DNA of 31,759 nt, taken from positions 1-31,759 of IMG/VR virus record IMGVR_UViG_3300025849_000138, one strand, 5' to 3'. The notes under the pieces are model-generated. The model did not search any database and was not told where the DNA came from. It saw only the letters and a program-made list of their open reading frames with translations. Numbering within the stretch: the first letter of the stretch is position 1; every line of letters starts with the position of its first letter. The DNA is from a virus. Of this stretch, positions 8,655 to 29,502 are shown piece after piece. The position numbers were made by a program, and so were the translations under genes.

Positions 8655-9365
8655 TTAACTCCATAGACTTGCGTCGTTCATTTTTCCATACTGACAGGGA
8701 AGGCGTAGTACAATAAACTTAAAATTAGTTGCAGTTCTGCTTTCTCCTGCACCACCTCCACTATTTCCACCACTTACATCGTCTTTAAACTTTATTGGAT
8801 TTATATTGGTTGTTGTTACTTCGTGCATTCCTGCTCTGTCTTGATACCTTTCTTCAGAGGAGGCAAGGTTAAAACTTTCAACTGCTCCTTTTTTATCATC
8901 CATTGAAATACATACAGGAATATATCCAAGTGTTCCTTTTGTACTAGACCAGTTTATTCCTGTAGTAGAAGCAGCACTACCTCCCGCATATGTCATTCCA
9001 CTTCTTACTGAAGTTGAATCAAAAATTAAAGGCTCTGTTGGACTTAATACATTATCTCCTGGTTGAGATACTTGAAGTCCATATTCATTATAGGCTGCAT
9101 AAAAAGTGCCATTTACAGGTAAATACTGAGTGCTTATATCATGACTTAAAACTATATCCCAAGTGCCTCCATTTCCAACTTGATTTTTATACCAAACGTA
9201 TACATCTGTACCCCCAATGTTATTAGTTCCATCTATACTAATATAAGATCCCACTCTTATTGCTTCTGCATTTGTGACGTTATAATATCCTGTTGCATTT
9301 GCAAATGCACGCGCACTTACTGTATGTACTGTTGCTAATTTACCTATTACTACTCTATCTGCCAT
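8655..9365 (-). CDS. MANR-type tail structural protein, paralogue 1
   Basis: This 236-aa protein is the first of three adjacent genes sharing an N-terminal signature MA(N/D)R-[VI]-x-x-GK and, further on, YGLQVSQPGDNV followed by LIFDSTSVRSG. In this copy about 80 residues, with beta character (NATGYYNVTNAEAIRVGSYI), are inserted between the two signature halves. A middle element LGYIPVCISMDD matches LGYVPLYVVRW of the third copy. Proteins of this kind are common in marine phage tail clusters and are usually catalogued as virion structural proteins of unknown role. Location next to the J-like gene suggests attachment to the tail tip. It overlaps J by 1 base and ends 1 base before the next gene. 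Confidence 0.7.
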   Translation of the reverse strand: MADRVVIGKLATVHTVSARAFANATGYYNVTNAEAIRVGSYISIDGTNNIGGTDVYVWYKNQVGNGGTWDIVLSHDISTQYLPVNGTFYAAYNEYGLQVSQPGDNVLSPTEPLIFDSTSVRSGMTYAGGSAASTTGINWSSTKGTLGYIPVCISMDDKKGAVESFNLASSEERYQDRAGMHEVTTTNINPIKFKDDVSGGNSGGGAGESRTATNFKFIVLRLPCQYGKMNDASLWS

Positions 9366-12300
9366 TATGAACTATCCGAAATTAAAATCCTTTGATTAGT
9401 TGAATCAATTACAATGTTTGCGCTTGATATTGCACTGGATGTTATTGTCCATCCCCCAACGCTACCACCAGTTTTTGCTCCGCCCGATAATGTATTTGTA
9501 TTAGCCGCTGTATTAGCCTGTGCTAAAGTAGCTTTTGTTCCTGCTAGAGTAGAAGCATTGGCTGCTGCATTAGAAGCATCACTTGTAGAAGTATTCATAG
9601 CTGTTGTATTAGGGAAAGATGCAATCTGTCCTATTGTTACAGTTGCAGCTGATAGGTCTCCTTTAAAGAAAGCGTTACCTGCAGTATCTATATAAAATTG
9701 TTTAGCGTGAATAGACCCTTGACTATTTAAAGTAATACCCCCCGTAGTATATCCACTAATATCTTTTGTTCCACTATAGATTGCAGATGAATCAATAGTC
9801 CAGCCGCCTACTGTGCCTCCTGTCTTAGCTCCGCCTGCCAAGGTATTTGTATTAGCTGCTGTATTCGCTTGTGCTAAAGTAGCTTTACTATCTGCTGTAT
9901 TTTGTGCAGCTGAAGCTGAGTTAGCCGCAGCTGAAGCTGAGTTAGCTGCTGAATTAACTGAATCTGAAGTAGCTCCGCCTGCACCTGTTACAGAACCTAT
10001 AGTTAAACTTCCCTTGAAGAAAGCATCTCCATTTGTATCTATATAAAATTGTTTTGCATGTATTGAGCCGGCACCATTTAAAGTAATACCACTAGTAGTA
10101 TATCCACTAGTATCTTTTGTTCCACTATAGATTGCGCTACTGTCAATAGTCCAGCCACCCACACTACCACCAGTTTTAGCCCCGTTTGATAGTATGTTTG
10201 TATTAGCTGCTGTATTCGCTTGTGCTAAAGTAGCTTTACTATTTGCCGTATTTTGAGCAGCTGAAGCTGAGTTAGCCGCAGCTGAAGCTGCAGCTGTTGC
10301 TCCTACTTCTGCTTCAATAGTAGAAGCTGCTGTTGCTCCTATTTGTACGGATTGCCCTATAGCTAGTGTTCCGTTTGCACTATAGAACTTAATAAACTTG
10401 TTTCCTGAATCCTGTCCAATATTTACATTACCAGCACCGTCAAAGTATACACCTAAGTCCCCGTCTGCAAAGGTGGTTTTATTTGCTGTGACAAACTTAC
10501 CATTATCTCCACTTGTTCCTAATTGAATTGTGTTTGCTATATTTGCTCTATTTGTAAATGTAGTATTTGCACTTAATCTATTTGCTTGTAATGTTCCTTC
10601 AACAATTACTGAGCCATCGAAAGTTTCAACAACTAATGAACTAAAGTTTGCTGCTGTTATTGAACCTGATGAAGTAGCTGCAGAACCGTTATATATTCTT
10701 GTACCTGCAACATCTGCACTATTGTCTGTTACTGTTATTCTATCGTTTGGTCTTATTGTGCTATCACTTGCATTTGCTATTACAGCTGAAGCTACCGCTT
10801 GTGCGGAGGCATTATTAAGAGTACCTGCAAAATTACTTGCTTGTGCTGCTGATATTTGTGCAGTATCACTTTCTTCAAAAGTAAAGATACTTGAACCTCT
10901 AACCCCATCAACACCTATGCTACCAGCATTTACTTTTACAAAATTAAGTGTTTTTACTGCTACTGTTACGCCATCTGAATTATCGATAATAGGAATAGTT
11001 GTGCTACCTGTAAGAGTTGAACCACTTCCTATAGCTGAGTTTGCATTAAGAGAAATTACTCCACTTGCTGATACAGCTGAACTTACATTTACATCTGTTC
11101 TTGTTCCATATCTAAAACTATTTGCAGTATAAGGAGAAGTTGCATCATAAGTATATGCCTGACTTCCTTTAAATACTGTTGGACTTGAACTAAAAGTTGT
11201 AAAATCGCTAATTGTTCCGCTACTATTTGCATCAAAAGCGTGTGATTCATTTGTAAAAACTACAGTATATGCATCTACTCCTGGTGCTCCATCATCTCCT
11301 CCAATTGATTTAGATAATGATTGTATTTTTGTAAATGTAAACTCATTACCATCACTATTTTTGACTGTAATAGTATAAGTTACTTTTGCATTATCTGCAG
11401 TCATAGAGCTGTGATTTGCAAATCTTCTTGTGTATGTTGAAACAGTACTTGCACTTCCTACAGTAATATTGGTACCTGATGCACTTACTCTAAAAGAAGG
11501 TGAAGCATAAGGAGAGCTTCCATCATAAGGAACTTGAGTTATACCATCGTATACTAGAATATCTGTTCCCGAATCAGTATAAGTTACTACTCCCGCATTT
11601 GTGGTGGGAAGAGTGTGTGCCTCATTAGATAATATAACAGTTATCGCATCTGCACCATTATCCCCGTCTGTTCCGTCTGTTCCATTTGTTCCATCTGTTC
11701 CAGGTTTTACTCCGTATACTGTTAGTTGGTCTCTAGCTTTAATTGCTGCAGAGCCACTATCTCTAATTTGAACTTCTATTTTATCAGGCATATTGCCGAA
11801 AGAAGATTGAGGTGTGTATGTGTAAGTATTTGTAGTAGTATTTGCCTGACTTACATCATTTAAGAAAAACTCGTAATATACAGTTCCACTTGTATTTAAT
11901 GCAGTAGCTGTTACTGTTGTACTTGAAGGAGAAGGAGTGCTTCCTGTATTTGCATAGGTAAATGCTTGGTCACCTATAGTTAAGTTTACTGTTCTTGAAT
12001 CTTCTCCTGCTGAGCCATCTTCACCATCTGCACCTGGTAGTCCATCTGCTCCTTTCTCTCCACTAGCAAAATTAACTAAAGAGAATGTACCTCCAGTATT
12101 TAGTACTGAAGCTATTACAGTATCTTTCTGTCTATCGAATCTTAATGATTGTGCAAATAAGTTAGCTCCTGAGTATGTTCTGTCAGAGCCACTAGCTACA
12201 GTCATTGAAGTATCATTTTCAATATGTGCTACTCTTGCCCAAAAACGAGAAGCTCCAGCATCATCTAGTACTACTATGTCGCCTGCTCGGAAGTCAGTTA

Positions 12301-15300
12301 AGAATGTTGTAGAAGACCCAACTACATTTGAACTAAATCTATCTAAACTAAAAGTACCATTTGCTTGTGATAAGTCTTCATTAGATTGTCCTAATCTTTT
12401 GAAGAAAGTAAAGTAGTATGGTTGACCGCCCGTAGCTGTAGCTGCTATATTATCTGTTCCAGCAACAACTGATCTTAGTACATCTGTTCTTGTAGATCCT
12501 CTTGCTAAGTTTCCATCGTAATCAAATAGTAAGTACCCTGTTTCACCGTCTGCCAAACTTGAAAAGTTTTGTTGAGTAAAATTAGTGTTTCCACTTTCTA
12601 TAGTTATACTTGGTACTCCAGTAGGTGGAGTAAATGTATAAGTACTTGAATCAAAAGCAACAGTAGCATTTGCACTGCCTATACTCATTCCTGTAGTTAA
12701 ACTTCCGCCTCTAGCAATTTGTTGATTTAGTCCTGCTCCAATTACACCTTCACTTGGTGCGCCTACATCTGAAGGGTCAAAAGTAAACTTAGCTTGTATA
12801 AACTCAGAAGTGTACCCTTGAGTATTAACTGTTCTTATACGTACTCTGTACTCATCCCCTGGTGGTATATTTTTTATGCTAAAACTGCTTTGTCCTCTAC
12901 TTCTAATTTGTTCTCTAATAAAGCCACTATTATTTCTTACTTTATCAGATTGAGGCACATCATGTTCTAAGTCAAAACCAGCTAAGTGTTCATAAATATC
13001 ATCTAATGCATTTCCGTCTGAATCTGTTCTTATAGATTTTGGTGCTGTCCATTGTACTAAAGCTTTATAGCCTTTTATTGGTTGGTCAACATCTGTAACA
13101 TCTCCACCTTCTTCATCAGGTATTATTTGTACAGATACATTTATTGGCAGTGGAACTATCTCTGTTCTAAGAGCTGGTCTCATTATATCAGGTATATCTG
13201 GTATTACCCAACCTCTATCTATTTCTGTAAACTTGTTAATATCATATTCTGCTGCAGTAATTTCAAACTGTAGCTCTTTTGTTTTTTCTTTTATACCAGT
13301 AATAATATACTCTTTTGCACTTCCAGTTACATCAGCTCCTGATGCTTGTTGTCCTGTAATTGCATATATTACTTCACTGTTAGGTGCGGAACTAAATGCA
13401 CTTGATACAGTTACATTTGATGAGTTATATAATGAAATAGGTTTTGTTTCTATTCTTTGATCTTCTGACCATATAACTTGTACTTGGCCACCTGAATCAT
13501 CTTTTAATTGTGATGCAGAAGCTTGAGTTGAGATTGCTGTTCCGTTTGCGTGTTCTAATACAAGGTCGCCTACTTTATAATCTGTGCTGTTAATTGTAGC
13601 AGTTGGTTGCGCTATATATGCACCTCCGCTTGGATATATTAAATGTAAATCAAAATTATCTGTACCATTTAGACTTAATTCTCTATCTGTTTCGATTACA
13701 GTAGTAGTAGAAGCTTTTGCAGTTGATACTCTTCCAGAGAATTGTACATCTTTGTCATCTGCATCTTGTACAAGAATAACATCTCCAGCAACTAAAGCAC
13801 CCCCATTGATACCTGTACTAAATGTTACGATTTCTTTTTCTAATTTTTCAGTAAGTAAATGCCATCTTCCAAGTCTTTGTGCTTGACCTTGAGAAGTACA
13901 ACCAAGAGCTGGTAAATCTTTTGATATTACCCTACCTGTTTCTGCAATATTATTATCGTCTGTTACTATTTCTACTGCTTGTTTATATCTATTACCTGGG
14001 TCATTCCAAGTAACCTTTACTTCATTTGTTCTAAATCTTCTAGAACTGCCTGAATAACTAAAAGTTCCTTCAATAACATTTGATTTACCAAAAGTATATA
14101 TCGGGCCTTTCTCTCTGTTTGAGTTTAAACTCACTTGACCATTGTGCCAAATAAGCATACCACGAATCATAGTACTTAAATCTTTCAGTAATCTTAATGC
14201 ATCTTGCCCTTTCTGTATAAATAAATTACATGAGAAGCGAGGCTCTGTTCCGCCTTTTCCATTTGGTACAAGTTCGTCACAGTACTTCGCTAAATTATAT
14301 AAAGTGTATTTATCTACTTGTGTAAAGTCAAAATCTGGGTCTACATACTTTCCAAGACCATATCTTGGATTTGTAATTAAGTCCATAAATATCCATACTG
14401 GATTGCTACTATATACAGGCATATAGTTAGGACTTGCAGCACTAAAAGTTTTTTGGTCTCCTCTAAAGTTACCGTCCCAGTCTACAGGGTTTCCTGTGTC
14501 TGCACCTGTAGTAACATTACGACTATAAGAAGCAGTTGCCCTTCTTGCTCCTGTATCATCATGTATTTCATCTGCTGGAAAATAGTTGGTAGGAACTTTT
14601 ACTTTTAGTCCTCTAATTTCGTATGCTCTTTCAGGTATATCATCAAAATCTTCTGCATCAACTATCACAGCTGCATAAGCTGTATAAGGATAAGTTAACT
14701 TATCAGTAATAATATTTTCTATAGATACTAAACTGCCTTGGTTAGTTTGTTGCCAACCATTTTCTTTTTGATTTACTGGAGATACTCTTTGAACTTCTAT
14801 TTTGTAATCAGTAAAAGGTTGGTATTTTGATATATCAAAACTAAATATACTATTGAAAGGAGCTCGTATCTGTCCATCAATTATGCCTGAGCTACCTGCT
14901 TTGACTCTAGTATTTCTATGATAATCTCTAGTATTTGAAGATAGAGTTCTTCTGCCATAAACAACGTGTTCGTTATTTGAAAAACTATCTGTTGAATCTG
15001 TTTTGTATGAAAAAACTATTCTATATTCAGCAAATCCCGCTCCTTTCTTACCATTTTCTTTATTAGAAATCATTGAAGCATGATTTAAAGTTATACGAAT
15101 GTAATCTACTTCTCCTGGGTCTGCTATATTCATACCAGTAGAAGCAACTCTGCTAATCCCTGATTCTCCGTTTCTATTAGGAGAAATGTCAGTATTTATT
15201 CCTAAAGCACTATTAGTTGGTTGACCTATTGATCTTAAATCTGTTTGGTCTAATGCTGCATTTATTGAATGGGCTGAAGAAGCACTACCTATACCAGAAG

Positions 15301-16039
15301 GAGCAGATAGATATGCTTGTTCTCTTTCTCCTTTTCTAAATGCCCAGCCAAAGTTGTTAAAATTGTATTTTAGTACGTCTCCTCTTGCTGATTTAGGGGG
15401 AGATATTATAACTGCAGTAGCTGAAGTTGTTATTCCGCCACCATTTGTTAAAGTTGCCTGAGTGCTACTACCTATAGTTGAAATTGTGTCTACTAAGTCG
15501 ATTGAAACGTTAGCAGAAGAAACTGTTTTTGCAGGAGGACTGTCTACTCTTACATGAGTAACATTTATAAATTGAGTTATTTGACCTGCATACTCTGTGC
15601 CGTCTTTACCCGCTCCTTCTATTCTAATAAATTGATTTAATGGTTTTGCTTCATCTCTAATATCATCTGCTGCAAAGAAAGAAGTGGCAGTACTAATAAT
15701 ACTATTACCTGCGGAAGTAGAAGCATTTGTAGCTCTTTTCTTACCTGCTATTACAGATATATATCTTTGTCCTTGTGCAGTAGTAAGATTTTCAAATACA
15801 GCTCCACCGCCTTGGTCTGTTACTATCCTACTTGTTGCATTATAAGAAGCATTAGGAGTCCTAAGTAGTTGAAAATAAGTACCTACATTGGCAGATGCTG
15901 CAGGGTTGCCGTCAACTATAATACTGTTTGGTCCGTTGACTAATCCCTCAATCGGGCCTTCAGACACAGCATCATATATGACAGCAGTTTGATGTCTAGT
16001 AGATTTTGTTAATTTATTATATCTGGAGTTTCCTGCCAT
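9365..16039 (-). CDS. Tail tip / host-specificity protein, lambda gpJ-like
   Basis: At 2224 aa this is twice the length of lambda gpJ. Residues 1-50 show the J start (TAVIYDAVSEGPIEGLVNG). The conserved phage-tail domain is at about 450-950, including SSNPVWIFMDLITNPRYGLG and the later VSLNSNREKG and PGNRYKQAVEI. A fibronectin-like region follows (980-1090: GYKALVQWTAP, DEYRVRIRTVNTQGY). The second half differs from lambda: three collagen-like stretches (1327-1347, 1447-1464, 1581-1589), each followed by a beta module (such as TVNLTIGDQAF, AITVILSNEAH, AYTVVFTNESH). Then come fibre-like beta segments and three 117-residue repeats to the C-terminus. The protein forms the tail tip and central fibre and probably contacts the receptor. 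It overlaps both neighbours by 1 base. Confidence 0.92.
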   Translation of the reverse strand: MAGNSRYNKLTKSTRHQTAVIYDAVSEGPIEGLVNGPNSIIVDGNPAASANVGTYFQLLRTPNASYNATSRIVTDQGGGAVFENLTTAQGQRYISVIAGKKRATNASTSAGNSIISTATSFFAADDIRDEAKPLNQFIRIEGAGKDGTEYAGQITQFINVTHVRVDSPPAKTVSSANVSIDLVDTISTIGSSTQATLTNGGGITTSATAVIISPPKSARGDVLKYNFNNFGWAFRKGEREQAYLSAPSGIGSASSAHSINAALDQTDLRSIGQPTNSALGINTDISPNRNGESGISRVASTGMNIADPGEVDYIRITLNHASMISNKENGKKGAGFAEYRIVFSYKTDSTDSFSNNEHVVYGRRTLSSNTRDYHRNTRVKAGSSGIIDGQIRAPFNSIFSFDISKYQPFTDYKIEVQRVSPVNQKENGWQQTNQGSLVSIENIITDKLTYPYTAYAAVIVDAEDFDDIPERAYEIRGLKVKVPTNYFPADEIHDDTGARRATASYSRNVTTGADTGNPVDWDGNFRGDQKTFSAASPNYMPVYSSNPVWIFMDLITNPRYGLGKYVDPDFDFTQVDKYTLYNLAKYCDELVPNGKGGTEPRFSCNLFIQKGQDALRLLKDLSTMIRGMLIWHNGQVSLNSNREKGPIYTFGKSNVIEGTFSYSGSSRRFRTNEVKVTWNDPGNRYKQAVEIVTDDNNIAETGRVISKDLPALGCTSQGQAQRLGRWHLLTEKLEKEIVTFSTGINGGALVAGDVILVQDADDKDVQFSGRVSTAKASTTTVIETDRELSLNGTDNFDLHLIYPSGGAYIAQPTATINSTDYKVGDLVLEHANGTAISTQASASQLKDDSGGQVQVIWSEDQRIETKPISLYNSSNVTVSSAFSSAPNSEVIYAITGQQASGADVTGSAKEYIITGIKEKTKELQFEITAAEYDINKFTEIDRGWVIPDIPDIMRPALRTEIVPLPINVSVQIIPDEEGGDVTDVDQPIKGYKALVQWTAPKSIRTDSDGNALDDIYEHLAGFDLEHDVPQSDKVRNNSGFIREQIRSRGQSSFSIKNIPPGDEYRVRIRTVNTQGYTSEFIQAKFTFDPSDVGAPSEGVIGAGLNQQIARGGSLTTGMSIGSANATVAFDSSTYTFTPPTGVPSITIESGNTNFTQQNFSSLADGETGYLLFDYDGNLARGSTRTDVLRSVVAGTDNIAATATGGQPYYFTFFKRLGQSNEDLSQANGTFSLDRFSSNVVGSSTTFLTDFRAGDIVVLDDAGASRFWARVAHIENDTSMTVASGSDRTYSGANLFAQSLRFDRQKDTVIASVLNTGGTFSLVNFASGEKGADGLPGADGEDGSAGEDSRTVNLTIGDQAFTYANTGSTPSPSSTTVTATALNTSGTVYYEFFLNDVSQANTTTNTYTYTPQSSFGNMPDKIEVQIRDSGSAAIKARDQLTVYGVKPGTDGTNGTDGTDGDNGADAITVILSNEAHTLPTTNAGVVTYTDSGTDILVYDGITQVPYDGSSPYASPSFRVSASGTNITVGSASTVSTYTRRFANHSSMTADNAKVTYTITVKNSDGNEFTFTKIQSLSKSIGGDDGAPGVDAYTVVFTNESHAFDANSSGTISDFTTFSSSPTVFKGSQAYTYDATSPYTANSFRYGTRTDVNVSSAVSASGVISLNANSAIGSGSTLTGSTTIPIIDNSDGVTVAVKTLNFVKVNAGSIGVDGVRGSSIFTFEESDTAQISAAQASNFAGTLNNASAQAVASAVIANASDSTIRPNDRITVTDNSADVAGTRIYNGSAATSSGSITAANFSSLVVETFDGSVIVEGTLQANRLSANTTFTNRANIANTIQLGTSGDNGKFVTANKTTFADGDLGVYFDGAGNVNIGQDSGNKFIKFYSANGTLAIGQSVQIGATAASTIEAEVGATAAASAAANSASAAQNTANSKATLAQANTAANTNILSNGAKTGGSVGGWTIDSSAIYSGTKDTSGYTTSGITLNGAGSIHAKQFYIDTNGDAFFKGSLTIGSVTGAGGATSDSVNSAANSASAAANSASAAQNTADSKATLAQANTAANTNTLAGGAKTGGTVGGWTIDSSAIYSGTKDISGYTTGGITLNSQGSIHAKQFYIDTAGNAFFKGDLSAATVTIGQIASFPNTTAMNTSTSDASNAAANASTLAGTKATLAQANTAANTNTLSGGAKTGGSVGGWTITSSAISSANIVIDSTNQRILISDSS
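9368..10276 (-). repeat. Three 117-aa (351-bp) tandem repeats at the C-terminus of the J-like protein
   Basis: The units begin near residues 1922, 2039 and 2156, and the third is cut short by the end of the gene. Each has an Ala/Ser/Asn-rich helix (SKATLAQANTAANTN) followed by a beta part (GGWTIDSSAIYSGTKD, IHAKQFYIDT, AFFKG). The DNA is also similar: a 46-base stretch beginning at 9846 recurs identically at 10197, exactly 351 bases apart, and a diverged copy starts at 9495, again 351 bases apart. Confidence 0.9.
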
Positions 16040-16737
16040 TATTTTTGTTCCTCTGTAATTAGAGCGTCATTACCGCCACCACGGCCTCCGCCACCAGAGC
16101 CACCACCTGCTGAACCTCCACCGGTTCCTCCTGAATAGCTACCTGAGTAAGTTCCATCTTTCCTTCCGAAAGTGAATCCATTACTTGCAGTAATTTTTGT
16201 GTCTGTAAATCCAAAGTTTATAGGTGCACCGCCTACTTCTAACTTACCATAAGCTAGAGGCACTGGTATACCTACTTTGGCGTTATTAATCGGGCCTTTA
16301 AATAGATTTGATTCATCCGATTCATCATCGGGCATTTCTGGAGTTAACATGTCTACTATTCCTTTAAGTGCAAGTAGTCCTCCTCCAACTATAAGTGCTA
16401 CTCCGATAGCTGTTGTTGCTCCAAAAGTAAATACTCCTAGTATTATGAGTGCTACTCCTAGTAACGCTTTTAAAAAGTCTGCTCCTTGAGGTAAAGGAGT
16501 AACAATTAAATCATCCTCTCCTAGGTCACCGTGTAAATTATCATAATCAAGAAGTTCTGAGCCTTTTGCAACATGAAACTCTATACCTTTATCGGTACAG
16601 TCTAATAAATATTTTCTAACACCACCTTTCATTTGGTCAATAGCGTGCATAGCTTCATGAACATTTTTACATACGAGTTCATGCTCTTTTCCAAAGAGTT
16701 CTCCCATTCTTCCTAATAATATTATCTTTCTTTTCAT
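16039..16737 (-). CDS. Tail assembly protein, lambda gpI-like
   Basis: This 232-aa protein has three parts. Residues 1-85 form a beta-grasp-like region (IILLGRMGELFGKEHELVCK followed by NVHEAMHAIDQ, with a later DLIVTPLPQGAD) matching lambda gpI. Residues 87-130 are a hydrophobic hairpin of two membrane-like helices (LLGVALIILGVFTF and IGVALIVGGGLLALKGIV). Residues 150-232 include VGIPVPLAYGKLEVGGAPI and then a very Gly/Ser-rich stretch (195-222). In lambda I acts with K just before J is added to the tip; the pairing of a ubiquitin-like I with a JAMM K is well known. It is absent or processed in finished virions of relatives. It overlaps K-like by 4 bases and J-like by 1. Confidence 0.88.
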   Translation of the reverse strand: MKRKIILLGRMGELFGKEHELVCKNVHEAMHAIDQMKGGVRKYLLDCTDKGIEFHVAKGSELLDYDNLHGDLGEDDLIVTPLPQGADFLKALLGVALIILGVFTFGATTAIGVALIVGGGLLALKGIVDMLTPEMPDDESDESNLFKGPINNAKVGIPVPLAYGKLEVGGAPINFGFTDTKITASNGFTFGRKDGTYSGSYSGGTGGGSAGGGSGGGGRGGGNDALITEEQK

Positions 16738-17048
16738 TGTGGTTCTAAAATAAATACCTCTTGTTGTGGGTAAGATACAATCATATATGGTATACCTACC
16801 GCATTACAGTTGTCAATGTCATACTGACTTGGACGACATTCCGAGTCATAGTGACTATGGACAACATATTTTATATTCGAATTGAGTTGATGATGTATGA
16901 ACAGTTTTGCGTCAATTTTAAACTGTGAAATATCTTCGTGGAGATTTTCACTCGGAATATATTTTTCCTCATTATCATCTACTATAACAAGTCCACAACA
17001 TTCTCCTGGAGCAGCTGATTTTGCATGAGCAAATATATCAGCTATCAT
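16734..17048 (-). CDS. Tail assembly protein, lambda gpK-like JAMM metallopeptidase, JAMM domain only
   Basis: This 104-aa protein is a Mov34/MPN (JAMM) domain. Glu16 in APGECCGLV and the zinc motif HSH-x7-S-x2-D (His64, His66, Ser74, Asp77 in VVHSHYDSECRPSQYD) are all present, so it should be an active zinc peptidase. In lambda gpK this domain is followed by an NlpC/P60 cell-wall peptidase; here the protein stops after the JAMM domain. It sits between L-like and I-like genes, as in lambda. The JAMM peptidase is widely thought to process a tail-assembly partner such as the I-type protein. It overlaps gpL-like by 1 base and the I-like gene by 4. Confidence 0.9.
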   Translation of the reverse strand: MIADIFAHAKSAAPGECCGLVIVDDNEEKYIPSENLHEDISQFKIDAKLFIHHQLNSNIKYVVHSHYDSECRPSQYDIDNCNAVGIPYMIVSYPQQEVFILEPQ

Positions 17049-18286
17049 TATGAGAACGCCTTGGCTGCTGGAAATCCTCCAAATGGTAACTCAGCACTAG
17101 TGTCTGTGCTAGATTTTCCAGTTGTGCTAGTATTTGATGCGTCTTTTGGTATAAATCCAAATCTCATCTTACATCCATCTAAACTTTTACTACAAGTATC
17201 TCCTCTTGACCAGTAAATACCAAAATCTGGTTTTGTACTTTCACTTGGTTTCACAGCTTTCCACATAATTACTTTATTATATGTAGGGCTAGAAGATACA
17301 TTATCTGTGAATATTACATAATCATTATATCTATCATCTGAATATGTAAAATATTCTGTGCCATGTGAATATGTTGTATATGTTCTCACAGGCTTAAACT
17401 TACTATTTGATAAACTTATTGTACCTGGGCTACTAGTAGTTTCTGTAGCCTGCCAATACAACGCATTAGTAACACTTGTAGTTGTTCCATTTGCATTAAA
17501 TCTCAATGCAGTTGTATTTGTTTTATAATAAGCATCTATTGTAATACTAGCTGGAGTATTACTTGCTGTTAAACTGCTAACAACACTTGCTGGAATGATA
17601 TACTCATCATCTACATTTGTATATACTGTGTATTCTGTTCCTTCGGTGCGGAATCCAAATGCTTTAATAGGCTTATATTTATTATCTACATTCCAAGTAC
17701 AGCCACTTTGTGCTTTTTGGTACTCTTCTAAATGGTCACTTGCTCCCTGATACATAAAGGGACATCTATTTGCTACAATAGAACGACCTGGTAATTGTAT
17801 TCCACTTAAATCAAAAGGAGAAGCAAGTTCTAAAGTTACTTGTATCTTAGTTCTTGATTTAATTCTATCTATGTACCATACTTGTCTAGGAAACTCTACT
17901 GGTGGACTTGCATCCCCGCTTTCTCCATACAGATATTTCTTAAGAGTAAGTCTGCGAATTACCTTTAGTCCAACTAAAGAGTCGTATTCTGTAGTTCCTA
18001 TTCCGCCACTAAATGCTGTAGTTGCATTTGCTATTGAGACAGTAGGCTTTGGTTGCGCTCCATCGTTTTTAGTTTCAAAACCATCTGCTTTCATTGGTAT
18101 AGGAGTGTACGTTCTAATAGTACTATTATCAGTAAAGTCTCTCATTTGAACGCTCGTCAAATCAGAATCAACACCTGACATTACATATATGTAAGCATTT
18201 TTAGTATACTCTATTTCAAAAAGTTGTACCAGTTCTGAGCCTGGATCTAGCTTTTGTAAATCTTTTATTATAATCTTTTCTGTCAT
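17048..18286 (-). CDS. Minor tail protein, lambda gpL-like, with large insertion
   Basis: This is 412 aa against about 230 for lambda gpL. The first 200 residues follow the family: LQKLDPGSELVQLFEIEY at the start, then RTKIQVTLELASPFDLSGIQ followed by LPGRSIVANRCPF. Lambda gpL binds an iron-sulphur cluster with four Cys. Here the four Cys are 175 (NRCPF), 196 (SGCTW), 365 (GDTCSK) and 372 (DGCKMRFG), in the expected contexts, but about 168 residues are inserted between the second and third. The insertion holds two similar beta modules, each starting KPI/KPV, with GTEY and an aromatic Tyr-rich pair (204-232 and 297-326), suggesting an added surface domain. It overlaps its neighbours by 1 base. 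Confidence 0.85.
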   Translation of the reverse strand: MTEKIIIKDLQKLDPGSELVQLFEIEYTKNAYIYVMSGVDSDLTSVQMRDFTDNSTIRTYTPIPMKADGFETKNDGAQPKPTVSIANATTAFSGGIGTTEYDSLVGLKVIRRLTLKKYLYGESGDASPPVEFPRQVWYIDRIKSRTKIQVTLELASPFDLSGIQLPGRSIVANRCPFMYQGASDHLEEYQKAQSGCTWNVDNKYKPIKAFGFRTEGTEYTVYTNVDDEYIIPASVVSSLTASNTPASITIDAYYKTNTTALRFNANGTTTSVTNALYWQATETTSSPGTISLSNSKFKPVRTYTTYSHGTEYFTYSDDRYNDYVIFTDNVSSSPTYNKVIMWKAVKPSESTKPDFGIYWSRGDTCSKSLDGCKMRFGFIPKDASNTSTTGKSSTDTSAELPFGGFPAAKAFS

Positions 18287-18663
18287 TATGCTTCGTAAAC
18301 TCGTCTTGCTGTTGCTTTTAAGTCATAGTAGTCGTCATACTTCCAAGTTTGATTCCATTTTTCTATAACCACTTTTACTGTTTCTTCATTCCCACTTTCA
18401 TTAGTATTTGCAAAAGTATAATCAAAAGCTGTTGCTCCTTTCTTACTTGCAAAGAAATCTACAATATCATCAATTTCATCTTTAGGTCTATTTACAAAAG
18501 CAAGTTCAAAAGATTGCTTAGTATTATTTATACCATTTGCAATTCTTTGCTCATATCCATCGCCGAACTCTGCTTTAAATATTACAGTTTCGTTTGATTG
18601 TGTAAAACCTCTATCTGGTCTTACAACTCCTAATGATCCACCTACGTTAAATCCTAATGCCAT
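18286..18663 (-). CDS. Minor tail protein, lambda gpM-like
   Basis: This 125-aa protein matches the short phage minor-tail family of lambda gpM. Diagnostic features are AEFGDGYEQRIANGINN near residues 32-48, the helical FVNRPKDEIDDIVDFFASKKGATAFDYT, and the closing WKYDDYYDLKATARRVYEA, a typical ending of this family. In lambda gpM helps build the tail tip beneath the tape measure. It follows the tape measure by 4 bases and overlaps the L-like gene by 1, the lambda order H-M-L. Confidence 0.88.
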   Translation of the reverse strand: MALGFNVGGSLGVVRPDRGFTQSNETVIFKAEFGDGYEQRIANGINNTKQSFELAFVNRPKDEIDDIVDFFASKKGATAFDYTFANTNESGNEETVKVVIEKWNQTWKYDDYYDLKATARRVYEA

Positions 18664-18667
18664 AATC

Positions 18668-21600
18668 TTATCCTGTTGGGTTTAATATTCCGCCTGGAGC
18701 TTGTTCTTTCATAATGGTTGACATTACAGAAGCGTTAATTGCTTCTGCTAGTGCTGAACCGCCATCTGCTGTTACATCTGCACTTGCTCCTGAGCCATCA
18801 ATATTTACATTTATACTTGTATTGTTTGTTGCGTTTGTGCCTCTTCCTAAATCTACTGGTATGCTCTTATTATCTGGTAGTGGTACGACTGCTTCATTTT
18901 GTTTTCCTTCTCCAACTAAGTATGTTGGTTGAGTTGCGATTCCACCTTTAGCATATCTTGGCATAATACCACCGTTTGCTAAACCTATTGGCATTTTGTT
19001 TCCAATGAGTCCGCCTTTTGCGAATGGTAATATAGATAGCAATGGGCCAATACCTGGTATCATTCCTAGTAACGGTTTTAGGAGTCCCATCATACCTCCA
19101 CCGCCACCGCCGAGTAATCCACCTAAGATTCCTCCGCCAGAGCCACCCATAAGTCCTCCAAGAAGTCCTCCAGTTCCACCACCACCAAGTAATCCTTGTA
19201 GTGCGCCACCGATACCGCCTTCTCCCATAAGGTTACTCATGAAGTTTTTCATCATGCCACCTTCTCCAAACATATCTGCAAATAAATCGCCAAATAAAGA
19301 GTTAGCACCGCCTTCTCCTTTTCCAAAGAGACCAGTACCATCACCTTTTAAAAGACCCATTAAGTTACCACCAAAAGTATCTATAGTTTTACCTAAATCT
19401 CCAAACATTGCTGAGAATCCTGTACCACCAGTATTTTTTCCTTCGGTTACAACTTCTTCTATTTCTCCGCCAATAGTTTTTCCTGTTTTCTCATCTACCT
19501 TAGTATCTGTACTATCTGTAGCACCGCCACCAACAGTTGAACTCATAGTTTTACCGAAAGCTGCCGCGTGATTTAATAATACTTGTTCTAGATTAGTAAC
19601 ATGGTCTACAAGAGCACTTTTCATCTTCTCTTCAGGACTTAGTTCTGTTTCTATCCCCATTGCGTCTTTTGCTTGTTTAAGAAGGCCTTGGAGTCCTTCT
19701 GTCATAGGTCTCATAATTACACCTGAGATTTCATCTGCAACTGCTCTCTTCATTGCCATTCTTACTGCATCAACAGCTTGATAGGCTTCCTTATCGCCCA
19801 TCAAGAAGTCAGATAAACTCTTTGTACCTGCTGAGTCAAACGCTTCTGTAAATGCTTTTCCAATTCTATGAATTATATTTATTTGATTTTCTAATAGTTC
19901 TAATTCAGTCATTTTATCTCTAATTCTTTGTTCTTGTACTTCTTCTAACTGTCTTTCGCCAACTGTTAAAGTTTCGAGTGATTTAATTGCCTGGTCTCTT
20001 TCGTATTCATCAAGCATTAATTGTTTACTAATCTCTTTTCTTAATCCTAATATTTTATTTTCTATTTGTGCAAACTTATTGTTTCTAGTACTAAATTGTC
20101 CAAGTATTTTATTTGCATTTGTTATCTGAGCATTTAACATCTTTGTTTGATGAACAGCTTCACTAATATCTGTTACCATGCCTTGTGTACCAAAAACTAT
20201 TCTTTGAACATTTTCTGCAGTACCAAATGTTTCTCCATTCATTTCTGCTGAAGCCATCATAAGTTCTTTTAACTTATCTTCAGTCATACCTAATTGTTGA
20301 GCAATTCTAGTTATGTATTGCTCATTTATCATAGTTTCGTTTCCAAACTTTTTAAGCTCAGCTACAGTTGTTTTTAATTGAGTTGCTTGTTGTGCAAAGC
20401 CGTCTCCTAACGCTGCAGTTGCATAAGATTTTCTTAAGTTCTCCATATTTTCTGTAGCTTGTTTTAAATACTCAGGTAAGTTTCCTTTGCTAGTAAACTT
20501 TGTTACAATATCCTCAAACTCTTTCATAGTTTCTGCATTTTGTAACCCTTCTACTGTAAAGTCTTTTAGTTCTGGAATCATTTTTTGATAGGATGATAAT
20601 AGATTTTGAGTAGCTACTTGACTCATTCTGTATTGGTCACTTTGTAGTATTTTTGCATTAGCATCTTTTATAGCTTGTTGTTCTGATGTTTCTACTTCTG
20701 CATTTGCTAATTTATAAACTGAGTTTAGTTTTTGTATATCTCCAAGTAATCCTGAAGTTCCTAATCTTTTTGAAAGTATAACAGTTGATTTTGCCGTACC
20801 ATCGTAGCCTATAGCACCTTCCATAATTTGTTCATTAAGCGATCTTAATTTCTTTCTAGTCTCATCTGCTGAAGTTTTAAAAGCATCCATTTTATCTTTT
20901 GTTTCAGTAATAAGAGCTTGTTTATCTCTAAAATGGTCTGCACTTTTTTCTAAGTTATTAGCAACACCCTCTAAACCTTTAGCCATTGCGGCTGACCCAG
21001 GTATAAATCTTCCTATGCCTGTTGTCAAAAAGTTTGCAATAGACTGAGCCATTTTTGCTATGCCTCCTAAGACTGCTCCTATTATCCCATTAAAGTTTTG
21101 AAATACAGATACAAGTCCTTGAATAACAAGAATAATTATACCAATTATACCTGCTTTACCCATAACTGCATTTGCTGCAGTTCCAAGTTTTTGAAAACCT
21201 ACAGTTAAGAAACCAATCATTTTACCCCCAGCAAACTTAATACCATTAAAAGCCATTGTAAAGCTACCTTGAACAATACCTGCGGTTCTTGCGGCTACTC
21301 CCTGGAAACCCTTCATAGACATTTTTTGTTTTGCAAAAGAAAGTTCTAATGAACGAACAACTGCTATATCTTTACCTTTAAATATACCTCTTACGATCTG
21401 GCCATGTTGTTGATATTGTTGTTCTGCTGATTTAAGAGCTTTTGATAAGTTTGCTTTGTCTGTTCCTGACATAGTGCCCCTAGCAGCTCTTTTTAATACA
21501 GGAGATTTACTTCCTCTTGATAATTTTTTAGCGGCACTTTGAGTATCTGCTGCTGCAGCTTCTGGACTCATAGTAACACTACCAACAGCCGCTTTTATTC

Positions 21601-22600
21601 TTGCGGCACTGGCTTCGGTTGAAGAAGCTAATCTTTGATTTAGACTTTCTATTTTACCTCCAAAAGACTCAAAGTCAACACCGAGTGCTCCTAGTATTTC
21701 TGTTCCCATTGATTTTGCAAAAAGACCAATAACAGCTATAGCTGCTACAATATTTTTATTTAGAACTGATGATATAAAATTAGCGAGTGGCGATATGACT
21801 CCAAGAATGGTTTGCATTAAGTCAGAAAAAGTAGTTGCTAACTGATTTAATTGGTTAACTGGTACCCCATCTCCTAATGCTCCAAAGTTATCATTTGCTT
21901 GCCTTAATGTTTCATTTAAAACAGCTTGGGACTTTTCAAATGTTGTTAACTCTTGATAGTTTTTACCGATTGCTTGTGCATATCTACGAGCAGCAGTTTC
22001 CAGCCTTAGTGTAATACCAAGTTCGTCTAATAGTTCTGGTTCTGCTTTTGTTGTACCTTGAACGATACGATTGAATGTGTCTTCGAAGTTTCTACCAAGT
22101 GCAAGAGCAGCTTTTGTAGAAGCATCTGCTACTTGTTCTATTTGTTCAGTAGAAAATCCTTTAGCAATCATAATAGCCGCTGAAGCACCTGCTTTTTGCA
22201 AGTCTATCTGGCCTTTAGTTGCTAACTGTAAGTCTCTAGAAACTTGTGCCATATTGACACCAGTATTGGCTGCGTAAGCTTCTTGAGAAGCTTGAAGTGC
22301 TTGGAAGTCTGCGGCGTTTTGCATAACTCTAAATGCAGCTCCAAGAGCAAAGAGGGTGGATGCTAGAACAGCATAAGATTGGACGAGTCCACCCGTTCCT
22401 TGTTGCATACGAGCAAAAGCTTTTGAACCAGATTCAACACGACCAGACATAGCCTGCATATTTCTACGAGCATCCCCCGCAGATTTACCGAATCCATCTA
22501 ATCCTTTCTTAGCTTGTTTTGCTTTTTGGCCTACCTGTTTAAGAGTGCCGTCATCGGTAACCTCAAAGGTAATAGTTGCGCCTTTTACTTTTTTTGCCAT
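18668..22600 (-). CDS. Tail tape measure protein
   Basis: At 1310 aa this is among the largest genes here. It begins directly at the end of the chaperone extension, as tape measures do. The tape measure sets tail length and is ejected with the DNA. Using the usual scaling of about 0.15 nm per residue, a tail near 190-200 nm would be expected. The sequence is mostly helical with many Gln/Ala/Lys, a conserved-style start (ATITFEVTDDGTLKQV), and hydrophobic segments around residues 80, 280 (NIVAAIAVIGLFAK) and 500 (GIIGIIILVIQGLVSVF). A very Gly/Leu/Met-rich stretch lies at 1128-1172. Then comes the typical end KGGIATQPTYLVGEGKQNEA followed by VVPLPD. I see no peptidoglycan hydrolase motif. No ribosome site is visible, so translation is probably coupled to the chaperone. 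Confidence 0.92.
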   Translation of the reverse strand: MAKKVKGATITFEVTDDGTLKQVGQKAKQAKKGLDGFGKSAGDARRNMQAMSGRVESGSKAFARMQQGTGGLVQSYAVLASTLFALGAAFRVMQNAADFQALQASQEAYAANTGVNMAQVSRDLQLATKGQIDLQKAGASAAIMIAKGFSTEQIEQVADASTKAALALGRNFEDTFNRIVQGTTKAEPELLDELGITLRLETAARRYAQAIGKNYQELTTFEKSQAVLNETLRQANDNFGALGDGVPVNQLNQLATTFSDLMQTILGVISPLANFISSVLNKNIVAAIAVIGLFAKSMGTEILGALGVDFESFGGKIESLNQRLASSTEASAARIKAAVGSVTMSPEAAAADTQSAAKKLSRGSKSPVLKRAARGTMSGTDKANLSKALKSAEQQYQQHGQIVRGIFKGKDIAVVRSLELSFAKQKMSMKGFQGVAARTAGIVQGSFTMAFNGIKFAGGKMIGFLTVGFQKLGTAANAVMGKAGIIGIIILVIQGLVSVFQNFNGIIGAVLGGIAKMAQSIANFLTTGIGRFIPGSAAMAKGLEGVANNLEKSADHFRDKQALITETKDKMDAFKTSADETRKKLRSLNEQIMEGAIGYDGTAKSTVILSKRLGTSGLLGDIQKLNSVYKLANAEVETSEQQAIKDANAKILQSDQYRMSQVATQNLLSSYQKMIPELKDFTVEGLQNAETMKEFEDIVTKFTSKGNLPEYLKQATENMENLRKSYATAALGDGFAQQATQLKTTVAELKKFGNETMINEQYITRIAQQLGMTEDKLKELMMASAEMNGETFGTAENVQRIVFGTQGMVTDISEAVHQTKMLNAQITNANKILGQFSTRNNKFAQIENKILGLRKEISKQLMLDEYERDQAIKSLETLTVGERQLEEVQEQRIRDKMTELELLENQINIIHRIGKAFTEAFDSAGTKSLSDFLMGDKEAYQAVDAVRMAMKRAVADEISGVIMRPMTEGLQGLLKQAKDAMGIETELSPEEKMKSALVDHVTNLEQVLLNHAAAFGKTMSSTVGGGATDSTDTKVDEKTGKTIGGEIEEVVTEGKNTGGTGFSAMFGDLGKTIDTFGGNLMGLLKGDGTGLFGKGEGGANSLFGDLFADMFGEGGMMKNFMSNLMGEGGIGGALQGLLGGGGTGGLLGGLMGGSGGGILGGLLGGGGGGMMGLLKPLLGMIPGIGPLLSILPFAKGGLIGNKMPIGLANGGIMPRYAKGGIATQPTYLVGEGKQNEAVVPLPDNKSIPVDLGRGTNATNNTSINVNIDGSGASADVTADGGSALAEAINASVMSTIMKEQAPGGILNPTG

Positions 22601-23412
22601 TTACTTTACTTTTGCTTTACGCTTTTCTGCGTCCTGTCGAGCTTTTACTTTTACATTCATCATATCTTGATGGTAATGCTCAATGTGCTTTAAAAAATAG
22701 ATACAAGTTCTTTTGTCTTCTATATCATAGGCATCTAAAATTGTACCTAATGCAGATAAATCTTTACCCATATAGTAGCCACTAGTTCCATCCCATCTAT
22801 CTGAAAGTAGGTTATGGACAAAAAAGGCTTCCTGTACCTCTCTAGGATAAGTATCCATAGTTGGAGGCATTTTTTCAGGGTCAGGTTCTTGATTTAGTTG
22901 CTCACAAACTGCGAGATACTTCTCTAAATCAATTCCTGTGTCCTTAAAGTGTCTTTTTATTAACGCAAGTATTTGTCTTACTTGCGTTGAGTAAAATTAT
23001 CCAGATCTCCTACAGTATCGGTAACCCATTGGTCGAAGTCTGCTGCGTTTCTCATTAGAGTCTCCGCATTTTCTTGAGAATACTCAAGTTCTTCGTCTTT
23101 GGCCACTCCGCTTGTATCTACTAATAGAAGCTCTTCTAAGTAAGAATACTTTAGCCCTTTCCAATTTTTGATGATTGATTTGCAATATTCGTGTAAGAAT
23201 GTTTCCTCATCGAGTTGTTCTTCAAATGCTCTAGTTTTCTTATTAAACTTATTTTTTAAGCATCTACTTCTGAGTTTTAATAACTCTTCTCTACTAAGGT
23301 ATGTCAAATCAACAACGAATCCTTCAAATCCTGGAAAGTCAATTGATACTGTTTTGCTTGGAGTTAATAAACTCTTTAGTGATACTGGTGTTTTTACTTC
23401 TTTTTCTGTCAT
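22601..23412 (-). CDS. Tail assembly chaperone, long -1 frameshift product (gpGT-like)
   Basis: The frame that is -1 relative to the chaperone is open from just after a TAA at 23000-22998 to a TAA at 22601. It therefore overlaps the end of the chaperone frame and covers the apparent gap 22871-22977. Slipping on UUUU at 22996-22993 gives about 140 frame-0 residues joined to about 130 more, beginning YSTQVRQILALIKRHF and ending KARQDAEKRKAKVK, about 270 aa in all. Lambda G/GT and many siphophages make the same two products from this position. The ATG at 22870 (MPPTMDTYPREV) would give a separate 89-aa protein, but it has no good ribosome site and the coding continues upstream of it, so I favour the frameshift. 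The extension ends immediately before the tape-measure ATG (TAA then ATG). Confidence 0.8.
22962..22996 (-). promoter_or_regulatory. -1 programmed frameshift signal: UUUU slip site plus stem-loop
   Basis: The frame-0 codons on the minus strand are AAT TTT ACT. The Phe-tRNA on TTT (22995-22993) can slip back one base on the run of four T and re-pair perfectly. Four bases later (after ACTC) begins a perfect 10-bp stem AACGCAAGTA / TACTTGCGTT (22988-22979 and 22971-22962) with a 7-base loop. The frame-0 stop TAA (22980-22978) begins at the 3' end of the left arm and runs into the loop. There is no T tract after the stem, so it is not a terminator. The slip site is not the canonical X-XXY-YYZ heptamer, which is the weak point. 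Confidence 0.75.
22978..23412 (-). CDS. Tail assembly chaperone, short (frame-0) form
   Basis: This 144-aa protein lies between the tail tube and the tape measure, the position of lambda gpG and its relatives. Chaperones of this type coat the tape measure and recruit tube subunits, and are absent from the finished tail. The sequence is acidic and helical (SREELLKLRSRCLKNKF, LHEYCKSIIKNWKGLKYSYL) with an N-terminal beta portion (SIDFPGFEGFVVDLTYL). It is similar in style to phage tail-chaperone families, but I cannot name one with certainty. It terminates inside the hairpin that forms the frameshift signal. Confidence 0.75.
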   Translation of the reverse strand: MTEKEVKTPVSLKSLLTPSKTVSIDFPGFEGFVVDLTYLSREELLKLRSRCLKNKFNKKTRAFEEQLDEETFLHEYCKSIIKNWKGLKYSYLEELLLVDTSGVAKDEELEYSQENAETLMRNAADFDQWVTDTVGDLDNFTQRK

Positions 23413-23462: not shown

Positions 23463-24704
23463 TTAGCTTACGTAAGTAATGCCAACTTCATTTGTAGCTG
23501 AAGCGGCTGTACCTGATGATAAGTCTGTTGATAAGCCATGGAAGGCTACATCTACGGACACTACATCTTCGAAACTATGTGTTGGTAATTCTAAATGTGC
23601 TTTCGCAACTTGAACATTTGCTCTTGGAGTATTACCACTACCTCCAATGCTGAATGTTAAATCAAATGCGTTTGTAATTACACCACGAGATTCTTGCAAT
23701 CTCTCAAATAAGTCAAGTGAGCCATTTGCAGTATCGTTTAGATAACAAGTGAAGTTACCTGATACTGACCTTGTACCCATGACATGACCTAATGGTAAAT
23801 TAACTGAACCTAATGTTTCTGGTGTTAAGTAAGTAAGATTATTTTCTATTGTAATATTACCTCCTGTTAATGTAACACCATATGTTACATCACTTCCGTC
23901 AACATTCAATGCGCCTAATGTACCTGTTGATTCTGATACATCAAAGCTGATTGCTAAGTCTGTTAATTTTTGTCTAATATAATTACTTGTTGAACTAATG
24001 CCTTCGTCAATTAAGCCTAAAGCAGTTGTTCCTGAGCTTTCTGTGTTAAGAGAAGCTACTTCTTCAACTGATTGACCATTTCCAGACCAAGCAATTTGTG
24101 CTAATCCTTCTATGTCAAAGTCAATTGAAGCTGAACCGACTGAACAGTTTGCTAATTTATAAACTGTTACGCCTTCTGTTCCTGTTGTATACAATGCTGT
24201 AGAAGTATCTTTCGATGCTCCTAGTACAAAGTATAAATCAAATACCCCTAGTGTTACTTGGTTAGAGTTTCCAAAATCAAAATGCTTCGGCTCATAAGTC
24301 GCTGCATTGTTTGCAAAATCTCCTGTTCCATTACTTCCAATTGCTCTATCGTACGTATTCGCCGACATAGCTGACCATAGAGGTCCTTCTATTGCAAAGG
24401 TGTCTCCATTACCAGCATGTTGGCCCGAAGCGCCAGCACTGCCGCTTCCTGAAGTCGTAGGTCTCATGTAAGTAGTCATACTCCACTCTGCCGGTGCAAA
24501 AGAGTCAGTAAACATTGCTCTACCTCTTTTACTATACCCAGTTGAGTTAGCAGCTTCACTAAGAGTTACTTCTGATGTATTTGTGCCTTGGCTAAATGAA
24601 AATCCGTCTAATACAGGAATCTCGTATAGAGCTGTATTAGCTGTCGTATCATCATGTGTCCATTGCATAAACACTTTGGTATCTCTACTAAAGAAAAATG
24701 CCAT
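23463..24704 (-). CDS. Major tail tube protein
   Basis: This 413-aa, beta-rich, Thr/Ser/Gly-rich acidic protein lies directly before the assembly-chaperone pair and the tape measure, the standard position of the tube subunit. It has few Cys and no membrane segment. Recognisable stretches are LDGFSFSQGTNTSEVTLSEA near the N-terminus, SIDFDIEGLAQIAWSGNG in the middle and LTYLTPETLGSVNLPLG towards the end. It is long for a tube subunit (commonly about 150-250 aa), so it probably carries a second tube-like or surface domain. Expression should be high: a strong ribosome site (AGGAGA) precedes the ATG at 24704, and a terminator hairpin follows the stop. Confidence 0.8.
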   Translation of the reverse strand: MAFFFSRDTKVFMQWTHDDTTANTALYEIPVLDGFSFSQGTNTSEVTLSEAANSTGYSKRGRAMFTDSFAPAEWSMTTYMRPTTSGSGSAGASGQHAGNGDTFAIEGPLWSAMSANTYDRAIGSNGTGDFANNAATYEPKHFDFGNSNQVTLGVFDLYFVLGASKDTSTALYTTGTEGVTVYKLANCSVGSASIDFDIEGLAQIAWSGNGQSVEEVASLNTESSGTTALGLIDEGISSTSNYIRQKLTDLAISFDVSESTGTLGALNVDGSDVTYGVTLTGGNITIENNLTYLTPETLGSVNLPLGHVMGTRSVSGNFTCYLNDTANGSLDLFERLQESRGVITNAFDLTFSIGGSGNTPRANVQVAKAHLELPTHSFEDVVSVDVAFHGLSTDLSSGTAASATNEVGITYVS

Positions 24705-27441: not shown

Positions 27442-29502
27442 TTAAGCTGAAGCTTTATACATTTGACCCCATTTAGAAGTTGCACCGTCAATTAAGTCAG
27501 TGAATCCTAATCTCTGAGAAGCCACTAGGACTCTTCTTTGATTAGCTACTTCGTAGTCTGATTCAATTGTAACACCTCTTAATCTAGGCATTACATAGTT
27601 TCTTGGGTATACTGCAATAGCGTTAAACTTAGCAGCAGCTTTAGTTGCGAACTCGTCACATAATAGTACTCTTGATCCGAATACTTGTCCGATTTCACCA
27701 CTTAGCTTAGTAGCCATGTCGCCAACTAGGTTAGCGTCTTGGAACTCTGCATCTTCAAGTAGGTTATAGTACACATCTTGTGATACGACATAAACTACGT
27801 CTGATGGGTTAACACCATATTTGCCCATATTCTTTCTTAGTCCAAGTAAGTCAGCAGCTGTCACACTATCACCCGCAGCGAAAGTTCCGCTTGGTTGTGT
27901 GTAGTCACTGTCGTTTCTTGCAAGGTGTAATAAACCTTCAAAAGATGCACCTGAAGTACCAAAAGCACCATCAGCGTCGTCACCAGCTAGGATAGCATTT
28001 TCGATTGCTCTAGCGTGTGATCTTACCATTTGCTCTCTAATTAAAGGAAGGATTGGTAAAATTGCATCTTCTTCAGTCTCATTACCTAAGTATGATTGTG
28101 AGATTAATTTTTTGGTTGAAAGAGTTCTTTCAGTCATGTCAACACCACCGAAAGGAGCGCCATAAGCGTCGCCTCTCTCAGCTAGGTTACCGTGAGGTGA
28201 ACTACCTGATGCAGTTTGTGCTGATGCAAACTCGGCATATCCACTATCTGGTAAGATAGGAATAATCATGTTTGCAGAAGTCATAGCGATTTCTCTAAAA
28301 AGAGGTGCTAAGACTAATTCATTTTGAATATCTCTTTCGATATTTGTTGATACGATTTGTTCAAAATCTGCTGATGAAACACCAACGCCTGAATGTGCGT
28401 TAACTTTTTCCATCAATGATTTTGACATATCACTGTTCCAGCCTTTACCTGTGGCTAGACCTGCGAACTTAGCATCTATAATATCTTCTTCGAAGGCTTT
28501 TTTCCAGTCGCCTGAGCCTTGTCTATCAGCAAAATGTCTTTTAGAATCACGCATATTCATGATTTCTTCTGACTTTTCGCTTAATTGAGATTCGAGTTCT
28601 TTAACTACTTTTTCAAGATCTTCTTGTTTTTCGTTAACTCTTTTCTCAACATCTGACATAAGCTTTTCAGCTCCTGATAATCCAGCTTCGATAATTGTTT
28701 TTGTTTCTACCTGTTTTGCTTCTTGAACAGCCTGTTCATTAGCTTCTACTTCAGCTTGCTTTTCAGCCGCCTCAGCTTGTGCTTTTTCTTGTGCTGCTTT
28801 CGCCTCGGCTTGCTTCATAGCAATTGAAGTTGCAGTTTTTTCCGCTACTTCTTTTGCAAATGCTTCCAAGTCGATTGAAGTTTCAGGAGATTTCTTTTCT
28901 TCTGACATATCAGTCTCCATTTTTGAGGATCTCTCCTCGCTTGGCTGCTCAATTTTAACAGCGTCTGCTGCTGCGGTTGAGTTAGCCTTTAAAAATTGCT
29001 TTTTGAACTCATTATATTCGTCTATACTATCAAATGATTTTGACAATCCAAAGGTTGCACCCTGATTGCAAGGTATTGATACTACAGATACTTCAAATAA
29101 TTCTGCGTCCTTAATCTTATATCCATCGGTTTCTGTCATATAATCAGCATCCTTGACTTTGAAACCAACGGAAAAGGCTCCAAGGACACCATCCTTAACT
29201 AAATCTTTTATATCACCAGCAGCTTTTGATATTCTACCAGTAATTTCTAAACCTTTGTCAGTAACTTCTAAACTAGTAGCTCTGCCTATTGGTCTATTAT
29301 AGTCATGGTTAAATAGTAGGATAGGATTCTGTTTAAAGTTCTCTAATCCGCCTTTCGTCCATGCTTGTGCTTCAATTATATCACCGGCTCTATCTAGTGC
29401 ATTTGTACTTGCAGAACCTTTAATATCAATACCGCCATCATCGTTCTCTCCTAATGATTTAAAAGTATTAGTCCAGTGAAAGATTTTTGTTTTATTTGAC
29501 AT
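27442..29502 (-). CDS. Prohead protease - scaffold - major capsid protein fusion (HK97 fold)
   Basis: This is one uninterrupted 686-aa frame. Residues 1-158 are an S78 (HK97) prohead protease: DRAGDIIEAQAW, the His motif FNHDYNRPIGRA (His66), the Ser motif GAFSVGF (Ser111), and the final strand ELFEVSVVSIPCNQGA (Glu137 probable third member). Residues 195-318 are charged, Ala/Glu/Lys-rich and strongly coiled-coil, matching a delta/scaffold domain. From about 325 (FADRQGSGDWKKAF) to 686 lies an HK97-type capsid subunit with GYAEFASAQTA, TLSTKKLISQSYLGNE, IENAILAGDD and a C-terminal SQRLGFTDLIDG. In HK97 the protease (gp4) and capsid protein (gp5) are separate genes, so maturation here presumably includes cleaving the polyprotein, likely also near 320-328 to remove the delta domain. 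A GGAG ribosome site lies 7 bases before the ATG. A terminator follows the stop. Confidence 0.93.
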   Translation of the reverse strand: MSNKTKIFHWTNTFKSLGENDDGGIDIKGSASTNALDRAGDIIEAQAWTKGGLENFKQNPILLFNHDYNRPIGRATSLEVTDKGLEITGRISKAAGDIKDLVKDGVLGAFSVGFKVKDADYMTETDGYKIKDAELFEVSVVSIPCNQGATFGLSKSFDSIDEYNEFKKQFLKANSTAAADAVKIEQPSEERSSKMETDMSEEKKSPETSIDLEAFAKEVAEKTATSIAMKQAEAKAAQEKAQAEAAEKQAEVEANEQAVQEAKQVETKTIIEAGLSGAEKLMSDVEKRVNEKQEDLEKVVKELESQLSEKSEEIMNMRDSKRHFADRQGSGDWKKAFEEDIIDAKFAGLATGKGWNSDMSKSLMEKVNAHSGVGVSSADFEQIVSTNIERDIQNELVLAPLFREIAMTSANMIIPILPDSGYAEFASAQTASGSSPHGNLAERGDAYGAPFGGVDMTERTLSTKKLISQSYLGNETEEDAILPILPLIREQMVRSHARAIENAILAGDDADGAFGTSGASFEGLLHLARNDSDYTQPSGTFAAGDSVTAADLLGLRKNMGKYGVNPSDVVYVVSQDVYYNLLEDAEFQDANLVGDMATKLSGEIGQVFGSRVLLCDEFATKAAAKFNAIAVYPRNYVMPRLRGVTIESDYEVANQRRVLVASQRLGFTDLIDGATSKWGQMYKASA
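28918..28938 (-). promoter_or_regulatory. Candidate internal translation start (Met195) with hairpin-bound Shine-Dalgarno
   Basis: Inside the fusion gene, minus-strand AGGAG (28937-28933) precedes an in-frame ATG at 28920, with 12 bases between them. The site is enclosed in a perfect 5-bp stem GAGGA-GAGA-TCCTC (28938-28925) with a GNRA-type tetraloop. Starting there would give a 492-aa scaffold-capsid protein without the protease domain, at exactly the domain boundary. A second in-frame ATG follows at 28908. The spacing is longer than optimal, so this is suggestive only. Confidence 0.4.

Follow-up and report, generated by a model that had tools for sequence, protein, structure and literature searches.

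The tail chaperone locus of this virus raises the question of how a second reading frame, overlapping the first in the −1 frame, comes to be translated when the sequence at the junction is not a standard slippery heptamer. Frameshifted tail chaperones are a textbook case of recoding, and the window (the whole 31,759-base viral fragment that was analysed) carries on its minus strand a series of genes: portal and head genes, a tail terminator, the major tail protein (23463–24704; phrog_3575, E = 1e-48), the chaperone directly downstream of it, the tape measure protein (18668–22600, 1310 aa; phrog_3779, E = 1e-41), a lambda-like tip and fibres. Two further observations concern the same strand. 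A 686-aa ORF at 27442–29502 has family matches to both a head maturation protease and a major head protein within one frame, and is a possible protease-capsid fusion. The genes at 9365–18663 (central fibre J, minor tail and tail assembly proteins) are lambda-like tip genes that follow T5-like tail tube and chaperone genes; the tail module of the window is a mosaic, T5-like and then lambda-like.

The chaperone gene and its −1 frame

The chaperone ORF (23412–22978, minus strand) encodes a G-like protein of 144 aa, the normal zero-frame product, which matches phrog_313 ('Tail assembly chaperone', E = 5e-13), and its 3′ end reads GAT AAT TTT ACT CAA CGC AAG TAA. A TAA occupies 22999–22997 in the −1 frame, which is open from 22996 onward; at the junction it reads UUU UAC UCA ACG CAA GUA, the Phe codon of the slip site lying at 22995–22993 and the first −1 codon, UAC, at 22993–22991. 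The extension (22601–22993) comprises 130 codons from 22993 to a stop at 22603–22601, encodes a T-like domain that matches phrog_3914 ('tail assembly chaperone', E = 2e-17), and is followed on the very next base (22600) by the start of the tape measure gene. Both halves of the chaperone therefore match tail assembly chaperone families in PHROGs, and a Pfam search gave no match. The original prediction had described a chaperone ending at 22978 and a −1 frame of 130 open codons reaching the tape measure start, and all of these coordinates were verified.

The slip run UUUU had been described as lying outside any standard heptamer, and this is true of the window, in which the sequence is U_AAU_UUU (22993–22999, followed by ACU) and departs from X_XXY_YYZ in having U rather than A as its first base. 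The perfect 10-bp stem predicted to begin 4 nt after the slip run was also found, formed by AACGCAAGTA (22988–22979) and TACTTGCGTT (22971–22962) around a 7-nt loop (22978–22972), with the frame-0 stop (22980–22978) beginning, as had been noted, at the end of the left arm, within its last two bases. This hairpin (22962–22988) has a folding energy of −12.1 kcal/mol and a z of about −5.5; none of 200 shuffles of the local stretch was as stable, and over 91 nt, 4 of 200 were. Stimulatory structures usually lie about 5–9 nt from the slip, and here the spacer is 4 nt if all 10 bp form or 7 nt if the inner 7 bp do. The departure from X_XXY_YYZ and a 4-nt spacer just under the usual range are features that count against a frameshift.

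In its arrangement the locus resembles lambda G/GT, with ORFs that overlap in different frames between the genes for the major tail protein and the tape measure, a short form and a −1 extended form, and products that belong to described tail chaperone families (phrog_313 and phrog_3914). The −1 frameshift of lambda G/GT is said to have been described by Xu, Hendrix and Duda in 2004. The lambda slip site is G_GGA_AAG, whereas the window has U_AAU_UUU, derived from A_AAU_UUU, together with a covarying hairpin.

Taken with the comparisons below, these features make it very probable that a programmed −1 ribosomal frameshift lets a single start yield two tail-assembly chaperones. The majority of ribosomes would terminate at the UAA whose last base is 22978, releasing the short G-like protein. 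A minority would pause at the hairpin with tRNA-Phe on the UUU of the slip site, slip one base back onto the overlapping UUU and read on from UAC, adding the 130-residue T-like domain; the predicted G-T fusion would have about 270 residues and the junction ...DLDNF-YSTQV.... By analogy with lambda G/GT, coating of the tape measure would fall to the short form, and recruitment of the major tail protein to the less abundant long form.

Slip site and hairpin among relatives

Relatives were collected from viral contigs and phage records, giving 475 loci with the window included, and profiles of both domains identified 464 loci (288 after duplicate removal) in which both ORFs were present and the stop was defined. 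The number called distinct depends on the stretch compared, being 170 or 288 loci overall and 8 or 5 for the U-type. One Aeromonas match (L112), in which the matching strand has no annotated tail genes, was left out of the evidence. In all 288 distinct loci the second ORF overlaps the first in another frame; separate ORFs, which the original prediction had named as speaking against a frameshift, were found in 0/288, as were in-frame ones.

The second frame is −1 in 184 of the 288 distinct loci, and in these the arrangement and a slip signal are retained. A canonical X_XXY_YYZ heptamer, which the window does not have, is present in 177 of the 184 (119 A_AAU_UUU, 44 G_GGA_AAC and 14 A_AAU_UUC), and the remaining sites are five U_AAU_UUU, the window's lineage, one G_AAU_UUU (L019) and one GCU_UUU_ACG (L388). 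The last of these, with only GCU_UUU_ACG at the end of its chaperone ORF, is a second, independent −1 member lacking a canonical heptamer. The G_GGA_AAC sites form a sister −1 clade (L022 and many of L315–L394), and on the tree the motif switched between G_GGA_AAC and A_AAU_UUY several times.

Both the slip run and the stem, for which a comparison of relatives had been proposed, proved to be conserved. Among 124 codon-aligned sequences the slip codons are AAT for Asn in 123/124 and TTT for Phe in 124/124, compared with AAT or TTT in just 60–67% at other conserved Asn and Phe columns; selection therefore acts here on the nucleotides and not on the amino acids. The Thr codon immediately after the slip varies freely (44/36/33/10).

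The hairpin was assessed in 107 distinct 46-nt stretches after −1 sites, an unselected set free of any bias from the choice of register, and gave a mean z of −4.0 with 92.5% of values below −2. It occurs among relatives in two registers that have a CAAGTA element in common. For register A 92.2% of cells pair, a figure inflated because sequences were picked for the register by pairing. Covariation in this register was 0.204, against 0.085 when shuffled (0/500 reach the observed value), and slid structures did not exceed 0.056, the sequences for both comparisons likewise being allotted by pairing. The pair at columns 8 and 28, which alternates between G-C, C-G and U-A, is broken in none of the 32 sequences. 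The hairpin keeps fixed distances from the slip site in the A_AAU_UUU sequences. No hairpin was found after the slip site in the G_GGA_AAC clade (mean z −0.58); that a strong heptamer replaces the hairpin was rejected as a rule, since most A_AAU_UUC sites of the same clade also have no hairpin.

Origin of the window's slip site and alternatives to a frameshift

A tree of 132 representatives was built after removal of the slip-site columns. On it the window groups with L017 (A at the first position), L014 (U) and L019 (G), and this group of four nests in a large group with A_AAU_UUU or A_AAU_UUC sites; the close sister L017/L018 keeps canonical A_AAU_UUU. Judged from this phylogeny, the window's U_AAU_UUU is a degenerate descendant of A_AAU_UUU in which only the first base has been lost (A to U). 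The motif is thus unusual, as originally described, in the window itself, but not for the family. In codon terms the first base changed as Glu GAA became Asp GAU, and the G of L019 is the synonymous GAG. With the ancestral A_AAU_UUU both tRNAs would have been able to re-pair; the change from A to U would therefore impair two-tRNA re-pairing, so that in the window's lineage tRNA-Asn would re-pair poorly and the slip would lean mainly on tRNA-Phe and the hairpin. Frameshifting is known to increase substantially when a shorter motif becomes a heptamer (PMC5009743).

This loss could mean that the window's lineage no longer frameshifts or is losing the ability, in that with U_AAU_UUU tRNA-Asn loses its −1 frame pairing at the first position, and the sister L017 retains the A. 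We consider this very unlikely, as the −1 frame is intact and has been under purifying selection. When the window was compared with L014, another U_AAU_UUU sequence, the −1 frame gave dN 0.10 and dS 1.31, a dN/dS below 0.1, over the 35 codons that lie after the frame-0 stop and ahead of the first ATG, and the same codons gave no purifying pattern in the other two frames; the fusion therefore appears to be still selected despite the degenerate heptamer. The 10-bp stem has also been kept, with a compensatory change from A-U to G-C in L014/L016. Stems in the degenerate-heptamer lineages have 10 bp and −12 to −15 kcal/mol, compared with −8.6 in L017, and their mean stability exceeds that of related A-type sites (−13.4 against −10.4 kcal/mol, nominal p 0.009 uncorrected for kinship), a difference that is no more than suggestive, since the sequences are related. 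One hypothesis is that the stronger stem compensates for the weakened slip site.

Alternatively, the T-like domain could be a separate gene starting at the first ATG of the −1 frame (22868–22870), with the overlap and the hairpin incidental. An ATG is found at a conserved place in many relatives, and two genes are annotated in T5-like records, but we regard this explanation as still less probable. The ATG at 22870 has no Shine-Dalgarno core; across the −1 class such a core precedes the first internal start in 1/184, compared with 248/281 before the chaperone's own start, and any start within 60 codons in 23/184. Moreover, the codons ahead of the ATG show protein-level evolution when read in the −1 frame, the phrog_3914 match begins 13 residues upstream of it, and the slip codons are frozen. 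An independent start at 22870, which the original prediction had set against its own reading, is therefore disfavoured, and the comparisons with relatives that it named favour the programmed −1 frameshift.

A perfect hairpin at a gene end might be a transcription terminator or another element unrelated to frameshifting; this is highly improbable, as no U run follows it on either strand, it lies inside the shared reading frame, its distances to the slip site are fixed in A_AAU_UUU sequences, and no hairpin follows the +1 sites described below. Production of the fusion by transcriptional slippage on an A/T run has a negligible chance of being correct: most relatives have an A4T4 run, but that of the window is only four bases (TAATTTT), known polymerase slippage runs exceed four bases, and the conservation of the hairpin suits ribosomes.

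T5-like relatives and the direction of the predicted slip

The other 104 distinct loci have the homologous second ORF in +1, an assignment made from the reading frame, in which −2 is indistinguishable from +1 by sequence. Most relatives are metagenomic contigs, and the +1 pattern also holds in complete named phages: the class includes T5, S133, Sugarland, My1, Kamaji, Stubb and several Vibrio phages as well as many environmental contigs. The site is UUU_CGN in 102/104 and UUU_CAC in 2/104, at the same conserved Phe as in the −1 class. This Phe codon is TTT in 103/103 aligned sequences, compared with 58–86% at other Phe columns, and the following codon is CGU, CGC or CGA in 101/103 and never AGA, AGG or CGG, AGA being common at another conserved Arg column. 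No hairpin was found after the +1 site (mean z 0.01).

In bacteria UUU_Ynn is known to be prone to +1 slippage (PMC5009743), and the influenza A PA-X motif is UUU_CGN, with a preference for CGN (PMC3498833). The PA-X site, UCC_UUU_CGU (PMC3498833), is exactly that of Pectobacterium phage My1; the gene and host are unrelated, and the likeness concerns the +1 relatives and not the window's −1 site.

The window shares with T5-like phages (Demerecviridae) homologous chaperones (37–39% identity to Vibrio T5-like phages), gene order and a predicted slip at the conserved Phe codon. It differs in that its second ORF is in the −1 frame with ACU after UUU, whereas theirs is in +1 at UUU_CGN, has no hairpin and is annotated as a second gene. 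In T5 (L109; AY543070.1) the two ORFs, T5.143/T5.142, are at 97054–97458 and 96624–96992, and homologues in L100–L108, L110, L111 and L113 are likewise annotated as two genes. From their sequences, T5.143/T5.142 and their homologues resemble a single chaperone pair with a +1 frameshift at UUU_CGN, and distant relatives of the window, T5 among them, appear to slip in the opposite direction at the same codon. According to the Sugarland paper, prediction gave no frameshift signal there, as in T5 (PMC6256483), and our literature search, which may miss reports in subscription journals, found no paper on a T5-specific frameshift.

A single branch with 99% SH-aLRT divides all +1 from all −1 sequences, and one change of direction is therefore enough; the chaperone tree has no independent root and does not give the order of the change. 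We think it likely that T5-related chaperones reversed their frameshift once at one Phe codon, with a previously unrecognised, structure-free +1 slip at UUU_CGN in T5 and its kin, and that the window's large environmental clade slips by −1 at (A)_AAU_UUU ahead of a covarying hairpin; the lineage of the window itself would have drifted further, to stem-reliant single-tRNA slippage.

These results bear on T5, a model phage that has been described as having no frameshift signal. The family provides matched natural cassettes, −1 with or without a hairpin, with a full or a degenerate heptamer, and +1 at the same codon, and so opens to test how the direction of a frameshift can change while the fusion protein is kept, and to what extent a hairpin can make up for a slip site that has weakened.
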